A stretch of 5,938 nt of DNA. It comes from a bacterium (GTDB taxonomy: Bacteria > T1Sed10-126). The translations under genes were made by a program, and so were the position numbers. The stretch is taken from the NCBI GenBank assembly GCA_003557545.1, contig PWOD01000014.1, forward strand, positions 1-5,938. The letters are read 5' to 3'. Shown here one piece after another: positions 1-5,938 of the stretch. Position 1 is the stretch's first letter; every line of letters starts with the position of its first letter. The notes beneath the pieces were generated by a model. That model did no database searches. It was not told the origin of the DNA and saw only the letters and a list, made by a program, of their open reading frames with translations.

Positions 1-176
1 TAAGCTCCAGCCAGCGCCATCGCCCGGGGACCTGCTTCTACCCGTAAAAATCCAGCTCCGACTGTTCCCACATCACTGGCCTCAAGCCGCTGCAAAGACC
101 CCGTTAAAACTAAACCGGCAACCAGCAGGATAGTTAAAACAATCGGCAAAACCAGCTGCATAGATCTCGCCGCCAA
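1..176 (-). CDS. PorV/PorQ (UPF0164) family outer-membrane protein, 5' part only
   Basis: Only the first 58 codons are visible; the gene runs off the low-coordinate edge. From the TTG at 174-176 the product starts MAARSMQLVLPIV, followed by a hydrophobic stretch to about residue 27 and a likely signal-peptidase cut near LEA|SD (residue 33). The mature start carries GTVGAGFLRVEAG then PRAMALAGA (residues 37-58), matching the family pattern G-T-x-x-A-x-F-L-x-[IV]-x-x-G-x-R-x-x-A-[ML]-x-G-A. Family members are outer-membrane beta barrels; in Bacteroidota PorV shuttles type IX secretion cargo to the sortase. I chose TTG over the ATG at 159-161 because it has a Shine-Dalgarno-like site (181-189) at good spacing and supplies an arginine to the signal peptide n-region, which the ATG version lacks. 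It starts 31 bases after the stop of the T9SS-like protein gene, so co-transcription is likely. Family assignment is fairly firm; PorV versus PorQ versus another subfamily cannot be decided. Confidence 0.8.
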   Translation of the reverse strand, partial: MAARSMQLVLPIVLTILLVAGLVLTGSLQRLEASDVGTVGAGFLRVEAGPRAMALAGA

Positions 177-180
177 ATGA

Positions 181-189
181 CTACCTGCT
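181..189 (-). promoter_or_regulatory. Ribosome binding site that favours the TTG start of the PorV-like gene
   Basis: Minus-strand AGCAGGTAG contains AGGT and matches the consensus AGGAGGT at six of seven positions. Four bases separate the nonamer from the TTG at 176, and six separate its AGGT core from that codon. For the internal ATG at 161 the site would be about 20 bases away, too far to serve it. Confidence 0.5.
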
Positions 190-207
190 GGTCGAAATCG
201 ATCAAAT

Positions 208-1554
208 CTATCTAACAACTGTAATCTGCCCCCTTGTTACTCCGTAACGGGAATTAATCAGATAAAGATATACACCACTGGCAACTCTATTTCCTGAATC
301 ATTTTTACCCCACCAGGTGGCTTCATTCCCCGTAGCTCTATATTGAACACCACGTCCAACTGACAATCTGCGAACCATCTGCCCCTGAATGTTATAAAGA
401 TAAATTTCCATGCCAGGATCGGCCGGCAAATTCTGAAAAACCAACGGCTGACCTTCACGGGGATTAAACGGATTCGGCCAGCTTCTTACCATATCAACTG
501 TTTCAAGATGGTCAGGAGCCTGTTCGGGACTCCAGAGTACCTGGTAAAGTTGCGTATCAACCTGGTGGATAAACTCTACTTCCGCCTGTAGGATTATAAT
601 TTCTCCAGTGATTGCGAGGAGCGGAATTTCTTTTCCTGCCGCCGGATGCCAGTCAACCCGGCTGCGCCCCTGGGTAAAGCCAAATTTTTGTTCATAAAAA
701 TGACCATCACCATGCTCAGTTCTTGTCAGTTGAAACTCAAGCGGATCGTCGATCCCGGATGCAGTCATACGCACATCCAACTTATGCTGATCAAGACCAG
801 GGCGATAGGCCTGCAATATTCCCAGGGCCTCCCGGTCGGAAAAAACTGTGACCGGTTCTCTTTGCTCATTAAGCAGCTGAATGCCCGCCATACTTTCCCA
901 ACCACTGGTGTCAGAACCGGTCAAACTCCCGTGCGGCGGTGCTGTTGCTTCTGGTGACTGCTCGGAGACTGCAGACAGAGTTACCCGGGGCCGATCTTGT
1001 TCAAAATCAACCAGCTGAGGAACGCCAATCACCACCTCCACCTCCTCCGGTTCAACCCCCTGAATAAGTAACGGCTGGAGTCCTTCGATTTTGTCAACCG
1101 GCTGATTATCACGGACTATTTCAGCTGACCAACCAACGGGATTTTCAACCCCTGTTAAATCAACTATCAGCTGATAATCATCCACAACATTACCCAGATT
1201 AGAAACTCTGAACTCCAGAGCCACAGTTTCTCCGGGAGTCAAAAAACCTTCCTGCAAAGTACGGTTTGCTAACACCCCCGGATATGCGACTTTACCCACA
1301 GTAAGCTGCAGCTCCTCCGCTGTCACCAGCCTGTATTCTTTAACCTGATCAAAGTAGCGTCCCCCCAGCTCGCCCGGTGCTGAAGGTTTATACTCAACCG
1401 GATAATTTTCCGGAACAAGGGCATTAATAATCTTTTCACCCGCCAGAGTCTTATAATAAACAAACTCGCCCATGGCAGCATAAACCCCCGAAATAGCACC
1501 GGCTAATAAAAGGTAGATAGCCACCAATAAAACTAATTTATGAAACTTAACCAT
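208..1554 (-). CDS. Exported protein with T9SS/FlgD-type C-terminal domain
   Basis: 448 residues with ATG start; AAGGAA at 1565-1570 lies ten bases upstream, a weak, slightly distant ribosome site. Residues 1-26 are a signal peptide (MVKFHK, hydrophobic core, likely cut VYA|AM). Residues 35-68 carry the motif T.A.E.IINA..P followed by PS..G.L...F, also seen in the protein at 1777-2886. Residues 104-180 read like a CARDB/NEW3-type Ig domain (LTPGETVALEFRVSNLGN, GWSAEI, a closing VGVP-like strand IGVP). Residues 258-326 resemble a surface-protein beta module with the pattern V.V...S..D.LEF.LT.TE..DG.F. The C-terminal domain (354-448) is clearest: WPNPFNP, IYLYNIQGQMVRRL, TWWGKNDSGNRVASGVYLY and the terminal strand GQITVVR. 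Such domains are the type IX secretion signal in Bacteroidota and share their fold with the FlgD Ig-like domain. No enzyme domain is seen. The PorV-like gene directly downstream supports an export cargo role, which remains inferred. Confidence 0.85.
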   Translation of the reverse strand: MVKFHKLVLLVAIYLLLAGAISGVYAAMGEFVYYKTLAGEKIINALVPENYPVEYKPSAPGELGGRYFDQVKEYRLVTAEELQLTVGKVAYPGVLANRTLQEGFLTPGETVALEFRVSNLGNVVDDYQLIVDLTGVENPVGWSAEIVRDNQPVDKIEGLQPLLIQGVEPEEVEVVIGVPQLVDFEQDRPRVTLSAVSEQSPEATAPPHGSLTGSDTSGWESMAGIQLLNEQREPVTVFSDREALGILQAYRPGLDQHKLDVRMTASGIDDPLEFQLTRTEHGDGHFYEQKFGFTQGRSRVDWHPAAGKEIPLLAITGEIIILQAEVEFIHQVDTQLYQVLWSPEQAPDHLETVDMVRSWPNPFNPREGQPLVFQNLPADPGMEIYLYNIQGQMVRRLSVGRGVQYRATGNEATWWGKNDSGNRVASGVYLYLINSRYGVTRGQITVVR

Positions 1555-1665: not shown

Positions 1666-1683
1666 TAAAAACCGATAACCCCC

Positions 1684-1726
1684 GGCTGCGCTCGAATATA
1701 GCAAAACACTATATTCGAACGCAGCC
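1684..1726 (-). terminator. 18-bp stem hairpin, possible terminator or mRNA-end structure
   Basis: Arms 1684-1701 and 1709-1726 are complementary over 18 positions around a 7-base loop. The only irregular pair (1691 with 1719) is C-A in a plus-strand RNA but G-U in a minus-strand RNA, so the structure is fully paired only in the direction of the genes. It begins 51 bases after the stop of the DUF11-domain gene, where a terminator is expected. Unlike a textbook intrinsic terminator, the stem is followed by GGGGG and TTATC, and the first T run (five Ts) comes about a dozen bases later. It could therefore be a non-canonical terminator, a processing or stabilising hairpin, or a protein-binding inverted repeat. 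Confidence 0.5.
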
Positions 1727-1776
1727 CCCGGTGATTTTCTCCATCCAGTTAAATCGATCATCGAGATAAACTGCTC

Positions 1777-3018: not shown

Positions 3019-5938
3019 TCAGTTTACTTTTACTTCAAACTGCAGTTCTCCGGTTACCATACCCGGCTCCTGGGGTTCAATAGTTCCAATAATCGACCAG
3101 CGAACAATCTCCGCATCAACTGAATATTTTTCCTGATAAACACCGTTTACCCGATATGCTATATCTGCTGCCGGGCCAGTTACTACCGTCGCCGTATCAT
3201 TTATCACTGTGTGCTGTGGTCTGAAATCCTCAATAACCAGGGATTCAGCCGGACCGAACCCAGTGTTTGCATAGCCAATCGTATAAATCCTTGTATCACC
3301 TGGTAGAATTCTTGTGTCACCTTCTAAGCTTTTCCAGAGTTGCATATATGGAGCCGATTGAATAGTTGAAAATTTACTCTCATTGCCGGCCGTATCGACC
3401 GCAGTAATCCAGTAGTAATAGCTGGTTCCACGGTCAACATTCGTATCAAAAAAGGTGTGTATGGCCGGTTCAAGCGGCACAGTATCCTGTATAACCGCCG
3501 CCTCAGTATCAGTCGTTTCCTCTGCCTTATAAATACGGAATTTAACCGCACCAGATTCTTCATAGTTCCACTCGATTTCCACACCGGTATCGGGATCATC
3601 CACCCGGGCCTTTGTGGAAATATCAACCACCGGTTCAGGCGCTATATTATCAACCGTAAAGATCGGTGAACTGTCCCAGTCACCCGTATCAGTCCCATCA
3701 AATCCACGGATTCTTAATTTTACTTCATGGTTAACTGTTTCACCAAGATCGGTTTTAGAAGCCCAGGTAAAACTGTGCGTCTCTCCGGTCACCGACATAC
3801 TAACCGATTCCACCACTTCGGGATCAACAAGGGTCGCCGGCTCCCAGCTTTCCCCGGCATCCGAAGAAAATTCAACCGTCACAGTCCCTGAAACATCATC
3901 AACATCCGGATCAGAAATCAGATATGTCGCCACTATATCGTCGGCCAGATATTCTCCTCCACTCGGATAAAGCAACTCTACCTCCGGCGGTTGGTTATCA
4001 ATCACGGTAAACTCTTGGGCCCCTTTAGCAGCACCATCTGCAACTGTAACTACTACTGTTTCGGATGTGGTTGAGATTGTCCAATCTTCCACCCGGGTTC
4101 CCTCGCTAAAACTACCCGATTCTACCGGACTTATCTCACCCTGACTGACAAAAATCTCAACCCATGCCGAATCACCTGTATAATCAGTCACAATATCAAG
4201 TTCATCAACCCCCTCAAATGTCTCAACAAAGGCATTAATCTGCACCTCAAACGGAACATCCACCGTCACTTCCTGGGGAGCATCAATCTGAAAAACAGGG
4301 ATGGCTGTGTCGGACAAAGAATGCAAGGCTATCAGTTCATTATCAACGCCAACCTGTTGAAAATCTTCGTTGTTATTATCCTGATCAATAAACGACCCGT
4401 CCAGATCCGTGCCAGGCAACCTGAAAGCACTCTGAGTCCTGGCAAAAGAAGCACCAAAATCTACTGCTGTTCCCTCGTAGACTAACGAATTACGTATCCC
4501 GATAGCATCAATCCGATCAGCTGCCGCTTCTTCAGCTGTCGTATACTCACTCGGTTGTTGATTAAACAGAGCTATCCCCTGATCGGTGGGACTCGCCCAA
4601 TCCCCATATTCCAGATCAACATGAGTAAGGTTATCCGCACTTTCCAGATGACCTTCACGCGCCAGCAACAGATAACCTCCCGGTTGAATCTCTGTGCCAT
4701 GTGCGGCATCACGCACAGTCATATTGCTAAATTTTGCTTCATCACGTGGATCATTCCAGTCATTAGTATCGTCAAAAAAGGCAAACCATTTATCGGCAAG
4801 CTCCACCGGTTCTGAAGTTGGATTATAAAGACTGACAAAATCCCCATAATCTCCCCCCGCCATCCGTACAGTTGCAATCACAACATTGTCGGCCATCAAC
4901 CGGCTTCCGGCAAATTCTACCGGTTCCAGGCGATTCACCGTAATTGTATCAGAGGCTACCAATTGTGATTCAGGATCACCATTATAAAGTTCGGCAACTA
5001 TCTGATTCGAGCCTAACTCCAGGGGTACATCCGGACGTATCCAGGTCGAATCGGCCTGTATTTCAACCGGATCCTGAGCTTCTCCGTTAACCCGTATCAC
5101 CACTGAATCACCCGTTCTGGCCGCTTCAACCTCACCAGCCACAGTGATAAATTCGGCTGAAGTATCATAACCATCCTCCAGCTCAGTGATTGAAATATCA
5201 GCCAGTGGCGGCCAATCATCGGGAGATTCCTCGGTACTCAGCCAGGCAGCCCCTAAATACAGATCGGTTTCAGGCAATTGGTTTGTCCTGTGCTGTATTC
5301 TAAAATTACCCTCCGTCCCCGCTCTATCATCCTTGGTAACCTGGTGAGTTATCTTCACCCAATCGTCGCCTGTTTCATAGGTCTCCCAGTCGGAATAAGT
5401 ATGGGTTGTATAACCGGGCCGCAGAACTCCAATACGAACTTCACCGGTATCTCGGACCCATACCTCCAGATAATAATCTACTGGAGTATTATCGGCTTCT
5501 AAATGTTCAAAACCCTGGTCCTCATCATAGGGTCCACCAAAGGAATGATCATAATGTATCGCGTAATCTCCTACTAGCCCCTCACCAATCACAGAACGAG
5601 CTGATTGACCACCTGGATTTGAAGTTTCCCAGTGTTCAGGAGAATCATCATTCGGCCAGTCCTCGAAAAATGGATTTTTGAGGAAATTCTCTGTCGGCTG
5701 CTCAACCACCACAAATTCAGCCGAAATCGTTGCATTTTCCGTCAAAGATATCTGAGTAATAACAGATGAAGTGTCGACTATATCTGCCGCCCCAGATACA
5801 ACTATCCATTCAACAAATCCATATCCCATCTCAGCCGCCGCAGCCAGCTCCGTATCCACACCCTCTTCCAATACAAAGGTATCACCATCTTCGGCAGCTA
5901 CTCCTCCCACGCTTATCGTCCCCGAATCCGGATCCTCA
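3019..5938 (-). CDS. Large multidomain acidic surface protein, 3' part only
   Basis: The frame is open to the window edge, giving 972 codons; the true start and signal peptide lie outside. The GTG at 5910 is inside a domain and is not a start. Counting that codon as residue 1, the domains are: divergent InlB B-type repeat (to 69; GYGFVEW, ISLTENATISAEF); carbohydrate-binding-like jelly roll (75-226; LKNPFFEDW, YYLEVWVRD); glucodextranase-B-like Ig domain (236-328; ITELEDGYDT, RVNG, LELGSNQIVAEL); lamin tail domain (333-515; DFVSLYNPTSEPVELADKW, IQPGGYLLLAREG, tail DNNNEDF); Ig domain of filamin-like type (536-639; FEVQINAFV, DYTG); Ig domain (640-755; PPEVELLYPSGGEYL, SSDAGESW, FTVDN); fibronectin III (757-853; KFRIYKAEE, YYYWITAVDTAGNES); DUF11-like end (856-963; LPGDTRIYTIGYANTG, LQFEVKVN). 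About 186 Asp+Glu face about 46 Lys+Arg. No catalytic residues, transmembrane anchor or T9SS domain are visible. An adhesin or polymer-binding surface role is inferred. The next gene follows after 132 bases with no clear terminator. Confidence 0.85.
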   Translation of the reverse strand, partial: EDPDSGTISVGGVAAEDGDTFVLEEGVDTELAAAAEMGYGFVEWIVVSGAADIVDTSSVITQISLTENATISAEFVVVEQPTENFLKNPFFEDWPNDDSPEHWETSNPGGQSARSVIGEGLVGDYAIHYDHSFGGPYDEDQGFEHLEADNTPVDYYLEVWVRDTGEVRIGVLRPGYTTHTYSDWETYETGDDWVKITHQVTKDDRAGTEGNFRIQHRTNQLPETDLYLGAAWLSTEESPDDWPPLADISITELEDGYDTSAEFITVAGEVEAARTGDSVVIRVNGEAQDPVEIQADSTWIRPDVPLELGSNQIVAELYNGDPESQLVASDTITVNRLEPVEFAGSRLMADNVVIATVRMAGGDYGDFVSLYNPTSEPVELADKWFAFFDDTNDWNDPRDEAKFSNMTVRDAAHGTEIQPGGYLLLAREGHLESADNLTHVDLEYGDWASPTDQGIALFNQQPSEYTTAEEAAADRIDAIGIRNSLVYEGTAVDFGASFARTQSAFRLPGTDLDGSFIDQDNNNEDFQQVGVDNELIALHSLSDTAIPVFQIDAPQEVTVDVPFEVQINAFVETFEGVDELDIVTDYTGDSAWVEIFVSQGEISPVESGSFSEGTRVEDWTISTTSETVVVTVADGAAKGAQEFTVIDNQPPEVELLYPSGGEYLADDIVATYLISDPDVDDVSGTVTVEFSSDAGESWEPATLVDPEVVESVSMSVTGETHSFTWASKTDLGETVNHEVKLRIRGFDGTDTGDWDSSPIFTVDNIAPEPVVDISTKARVDDPDTGVEIEWNYEESGAVKFRIYKAEETTDTEAAVIQDTVPLEPAIHTFFDTNVDRGTSYYYWITAVDTAGNESKFSTIQSAPYMQLWKSLEGDTRILPGDTRIYTIGYANTGFGPAESLVIEDFRPQHTVINDTATVVTGPAADIAYRVNGVYQEKYSVDAEIVRWSIIGTIEPQEPGMVTGELQFEVKVN

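Follow-up and report, generated by a model that had tools for sequence, protein, structure and literature searches.

The gene pair at the low-coordinate end of the window, which is the whole stretch of 5,938 nucleotides that was analysed, is read here, with a probability of roughly 0.6, as one of many couples of a cargo and its own carrier within an export system of the phylum T1Sed10-126 that is type IX-like but divergent and devoid of PorU. The C-terminal sorting-like domain (CTD) of the cargo would be bound by the neighbouring barrel of the PorV/PorQ family and would probably be left uncut, with the cargo being held on the cell surface. The CTD-PorV export system is encoded genome-wide and is not specific to the window locus.

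The Window and the Genomes Compared

The window is the entire 5.9-kb contig (C153) from a MAG of 2.15 Mb with a completeness of 92%, labelled G000. The sister genome G001 (MAG T1Sed10_126) was the sole genome of the same family in the comparison, while G029 is a genome from another phylum. For the phylum T1Sed10-126 ("Candidatus Busufiota"), two genomes of 2.15–2.2 Mb from hypersaline soda-lake sediment are listed (PMC11382960); the completeness of the two genomes of this phylum, G000 and G001, is 92–93%.

All four main genes of the window are carried by the minus strand. The gene at 3019–5937, the 5′ end of which is cut, encodes a large surface protein of at least 972 amino acids with a DUF11-like end and weak InlB-like, lamin-tail, Glucodextranase-B, and fn3 matches, all of them under the curated cut-offs. 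It is followed at 1777–2886 by the gene of a DUF11-ending surface protein of 369 amino acids (PF01345, 30.5 bits), which has 34% identity to the syntenic protein of the sister genome. The CTD protein (208–1554, 448 amino acids) is composed of an N-terminal signal-like hydrophobic segment, a beta-rich body, and a C-terminal T9SS-like Ig domain. Of the PorV/PorQ-family gene, located at 1–176 and cut by the contig end, the first ~58 residues are present. Its frame is open up to position 218, and either TTG 176 or ATG 161 may serve as the start; the gene coordinates and the gap of 31 bases from the CTD stop to the barrel gene, as given in the initial annotation, are exact provided that the barrel starts at TTG 176.

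Between the DUF11 and CTD genes, a 19-pair hairpin followed by a T-rich stretch (1670–1732, minus strand) represents a probable intrinsic terminator (fold −40.7 kcal/mol, z −7.7; terminator-like site 1687–1670). The position of the hairpin with its T-rich tail upstream of the couple suggests that CTD-PorV is a separate transcription unit. The DUF11-ending proteins (window, 1777–2886; locus L031, 14476–19736) have in common an AMEEIINA-like start behind the signal segment and precede the CTD gene as a tandem.

Pairing of CTD and Barrel Genes

A first scan of the genome contigs with the window protein gave no match. The sister genome keeps the pair, with a full-length orthologue of the cargo (38% identity) and the gene order DUF11, CTD, PorV-TPR, and this order is found also on contig C28 of G029. 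The test of conservation in related genomes, which the initial annotation had proposed, thus shows the pair to be kept across genera, in the sister genome, and in a genome of another phylum. Two outcomes had been named that would speak against the link, namely, a barrel that is not of the PorV type once complete and a pair that is not kept together; as examined via the sister genome, the complete barrel is a PorV/PorQ-family member and the pair is retained, so that neither outcome was obtained.

PorV-family matches of more than 100 bits are located directly behind a CTD gene of the same strand in 16 of 16 cases, six of them in G000 (contigs C231, C119, C136, C73, C77, and C53) and ten in G001 (C102, C20, C79, C23, C45, and C108, as well as C6 and C118 with two each); stop and start often overlap in these couples. 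The barrel fragment of the window and the weaker barrel on C198 are likewise placed directly behind a CTD gene. No CTD gene directly precedes the weaker matches on C141 of G000 (44 bits), the contig-start fragments on C168 and C118, the FadL-like proteins on C99 and C164, and the second barrel on C102 (78 bits), which is found one couple further on. At the PorV loci of other genomes, a CTD gene is located just upstream in most cases, though not in all.

Within each genome, the distances among the CTDs correlate with those among the barrels (r 0.83, p 9e-4 in G000; r 0.66, p 1.3e-3 in G001). The same correlation would arise if the pair were duplicated as one block, and this co-divergence therefore demonstrates joint inheritance, not binding. 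In G000, there are about eight couples, that is, the window couple and at least seven more, versus ~44 CTD matches, and many cargoes would therefore be without a carrier of their own.

The SprA Pore and the Search for a Sortase

With PF14349, no SprA was matched in G000, G001, G027, G029, and G018. A profile of nine SprA proteins, which matches the solved SprA 6h3i at 1e-218, revealed a diverged SprA in G000 (E 2e-80), split across the ends of contigs C23 and C86, and another one in a 1,826-codon frame of G029. The absence deduced from PF14349 is overturned by this result, and a translocon-less route was therefore abandoned. Against TIGR04189, the SprA of G000 gives 2.9e-21, which is under the 200-bit cut-off. 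In G001, an N-terminal piece of SprA is found at a contig end (5.3e-20, with the profile including the G000 sequence); it is because of contig ends that SprA is incomplete in the assemblies of G000 and G001. Weak matches of the SprA profile in G027 and G005 were confined to one short part of the profile and were not counted as SprA.

A candidate for peptidase C25, the domain of PorU, was not found in G000, G001, G027, and G018, and none was accepted in G029, versus ten of ten SprA_N-positive comparison genomes tested in which this peptidase is present (one of them, G039, having a weak SprA_N match). The sortase search covered peptidase C25; a sortase of another family may exist in G000 and G001. 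Diverged SprA-like proteins that are missed by PF14349 are encoded also in genomes without peptidase C25 (G018 and G029; L104 251–5941, L103 4305–9782), and sortase-less SprA may constitute a wider class.

These results bear on the initial annotation in different ways. The profile search of the genome for SprA, which it had proposed as a check, led to the diverged homologue, and its idea of a divergent, type IX-like export route is upheld by the presence of this SprA and by the failure to find PorU. The outer-membrane sortase of its model was not found, with no peptidase C25 candidate for PorU in either G000 or G001. The notion of a route dedicated to this surface locus was not supported: with SprA on other contigs, ~44 CTDs, and at least seven further couples, the window couple is one among many.

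In an ordinary type A T9SS, a sortase missed by the search would cut the CTD after export, and the PorV-family barrels would be general shuttles for all CTD proteins. The SprA homologue, the Ig-like fold of the CTD, and the large excess of CTDs over barrels in G000 would fit such a system, while its sortase would have to have escaped detection in two genomes of 92–93% completeness, as opposed to the ten positive comparison genomes. General shuttles are also difficult to reconcile with the finding that each strong barrel adjoins a CTD gene, and cleavage with the resemblance of the CTDs to the uncleaved ones of PorU and PorZ, so that this explanation is considered unlikely.

The PorV/PorQ-Family Barrel

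The ~58 barrel residues of the window were not matched by any of the library models; against the barrel profile, they give an E value of 1.1e-4. The complete orthologue of the sister genome (G001, 420 amino acids) is 45% identical across these residues and scores 156.7 bits against the PorV/PorQ family NF033709, which is above the cut-off of 90. It stays under the equivalog cut-offs of T9SS PorV (NF033710, 55/250 bits) and PorQ (NF033711, 81.8/220 bits) as well as under that of the PorP/SprF family (TIGR03519, 18.5 bits, cut-off 90.55). Among solved structures, the barrel profile matches PorV of the Flavobacterium johnsoniae SprA-PorV structure 6h3i at 3.2e-26, with TodX following far behind. 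Judged from sequence, the barrel gene of the window is assigned to the PorV/PorQ family, outside the PorV and PorQ equivalogs; the designation of the next gene as PorV/PorQ-like in the initial annotation was thus appropriate in view of the family score of the sister orthologue and the match to PorV.

The lead of PorV of the SprA complex over TodX argues against the barrel being an idle paralogue of PorV or an uptake channel of the FadL type, whose adjacency to the CTD gene would result from gene-block duplication without a working partnership. The family is distantly FadL-like, as is evident from the TodX and Toluene_X matches, and block duplication would also yield the observed co-divergence, but the arrangement of a PorV-family gene behind a CTD gene is encountered again in many other genomes, across phyla, which makes this explanation distinctly improbable.

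The sister orthologue possesses a TPR region at its C-terminus. Such regions are present on several PorV-family barrels (L080, L081, L082, L088, and L176), while others are without them; some are preceded by a PEPEPE linker similar to the one in TonB. A peptidoglycan-binding domain was not found on the barrel-fused TPR region. When the sister barrel was modelled by AlphaFold without an alignment, a pLDDT of 42 was obtained, with the TPR tail alone being folded. The barrel end on contig C168 of G000 was rejected as a candidate for the remainder of the window gene because it is devoid of a TPR tail and has different neighbours.

The C-Terminal Domain of the Cargo

The 448-amino acid protein terminates in WPNPFNP...GVYLYLINSRYGVTRGQITVVR, with the CTD spanning positions 211–501 on the minus strand. 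Single-sequence models give a weak signal for this domain; in Pfam, FlgD_ig comes first (1.1e-3), and the score against the type A CTD model TIGR04183 (17.3 bits) is under the cut-off of 23. Among the NCBIfam models, those of PorZ (1.3e-5) and PorU (2.9e-4) match best, each with its CTD region. A profile of 14 C-termini from G000 and G001 matches the crystal structures of PorU (6za2, 9.4e-7) and PorZ (5m11, 3.2e-5), both better than FlgD; the window CTD itself, from which this model was partly built, is matched with an E value of 8e-31. According to the AlphaFold model, the CTD would be a beta sandwich with pLDDT >80 across the Ig part. In a Foldseek search with this model, PorZ 5m11 ranked first (E 2.2e-4), with FlgD chains close behind and low TM-scores. 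By these comparisons, the window CTD is placed nearest to the CTDs of PorU and PorZ, in line with the T9SS-like CTD protein that the initial annotation had recognized at 208–1554. Both PorU and PorZ are CTD proteins that retain this domain (PMC11285876).

It is barely conceivable that the cargo does not pass the outer membrane and that its terminal domain is a FlgD-like Ig domain, as might be concluded from the FlgD_ig match and from the FlgD structures in both the sequence-profile and the fold match lists, given that FlgD is outscored by PorU and PorZ in the sequence profile and preceded by PorZ in the fold comparison, and that the domain is located at the extreme C-terminus of dozens of large, repeat-rich proteins.

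The profile built from G000 and G001 yields ~44 CTD matches in G000 and 12 in the sister genome; the cargo set has seemingly been expanded in the former, with the carriers not keeping pace.

Proposed Mechanism and Relation to Known Systems

In the export route that we infer for the couple, including binding, retention, a function for the TPR tail, and a possible motor, the CTD protein would cross the inner membrane by Sec, as suggested by its N-terminus, and would enter the diverged SprA/Sov pore, the gene of which is present elsewhere in the genome. There, its Ig-like CTD would be recognized by the neighbouring PorV/PorQ-family barrel, for which family, adjacency, and co-divergence speak. Bound to the barrel, the cargo would exit the pore sideways, as was shown for PorV in F. 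johnsoniae (PMC10994853). As no PorU was found, the CTD would probably stay uncut, and with no sortase cutting it, the cargo would be retained on the surface by its own barrel, comparable to SprB, which is held by SprF, and to PorU and PorZ, which keep their CTDs. Several barrels, the sister orthologue among them, end in a TPR tail, by which the couple may be connected with a partner in the periplasm, comparable to PorE in the case of PorP.

In published accounts, the type IX system is assigned to Bacteroidota or the FCB superphylum, and Ig-like (type A) CTDs are linked to the PorU sortase and to a single, general PorV shuttle. In a literature search, no earlier account of type IX secretion in the phylum T1Sed10-126 was found, which is not proof that there is none. 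In the SprB-SprF pairs of F. johnsoniae (type B CTD with PorP/SprF), the carrier gene is, as in the present couples, located directly downstream of the cargo gene and provides it with its own carrier, some cargoes are orphans, and the carrier is thought to anchor the cargo (PMC12618676, PMC9143113). In contrast to these pairs, the CTD described here is Ig-like and nearest to those of PorU and PorZ, and the carrier belongs to the PorV/PorQ family instead of PorP/SprF. The PorU-PorV-PorZ-PorQ attachment complex of Porphyromonas gingivalis also combines uncleaved-CTD proteins with PorV/PorQ-family barrels, and its CTDs are the nearest solved relatives; here, however, the PorU peptidase was not found, the cargoes are large surface proteins, and the genes are arranged in adjacent pairs. 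In the PorE-PorP-PG1035 complex of P. gingivalis, a barrel carrying a CTD protein likewise meets a TPR-bearing periplasmic partner, whereas in several of the present couples TPR is fused to the barrel's own C-terminus, where no peptidoglycan-binding domain was found.

The best reading is a type IX-like variant for which a sortase was not found and in which pairing in the style of SprB/SprF is accomplished by PorV-family barrels. In this candidate phylum, the pore, many CTDs, and PorV-family carriers paired with them are present, and a sortase was not detected. If this reading is true, the core of the machine, consisting of pore, CTD, and carrier, would be separable from the cutting and attachment module, and many natural CTD-carrier pairs would be at hand for reading the recognition code.

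The ExbB-ExbD-TonB-TPR Block

Behind the couple of G001 come another PorV-family barrel, ExbB, ExbD, TonB, and a TPR protein of 908 amino acids. An assignment of this second barrel as PorP/SprF-like was dropped; it is a member of the PorV/PorQ family. Contig C19 of G000 ends just before the same ExbB and is colinear with G001 from there onward, and the window would therefore probably continue on C19, with a gap of ~2 kb. On contig C18 of G029, a different CTD-PorV couple is directly followed by ExbB, ExbD, TonB, and a TPR protein.

The block may be either an export motor or a Tol-like bystander. The best model for the ExbB of G029 is TolQ, and for the TPR proteins of the block it is YbgF. For the large TPR protein in the neighbourhood, an assignment as PorW/SprE was rejected because YbgF and other TPR models score equally well or better. 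The GldM model gave no match in any genome, the comparison genomes included, and hence a positive control was not available for it. A separate type IX branch, in which the own PorV-family carrier would take the place of both the PorU sortase and the general shuttle, with the neighbouring ExbB-ExbD-TonB-TPR module, instead of GldL/GldM, powering the pulling of carrier and cargo off the SprA pore, is regarded as rather unlikely. One ExbD was found in G001, namely, that inside the block, and two were found in G000. The block is located beside couples in G001 and G029, and it is colinear on the G000 contig that ends just ahead of ExbB (L031 4380–9267, L184 7688–12308, and L194 4522–9616).
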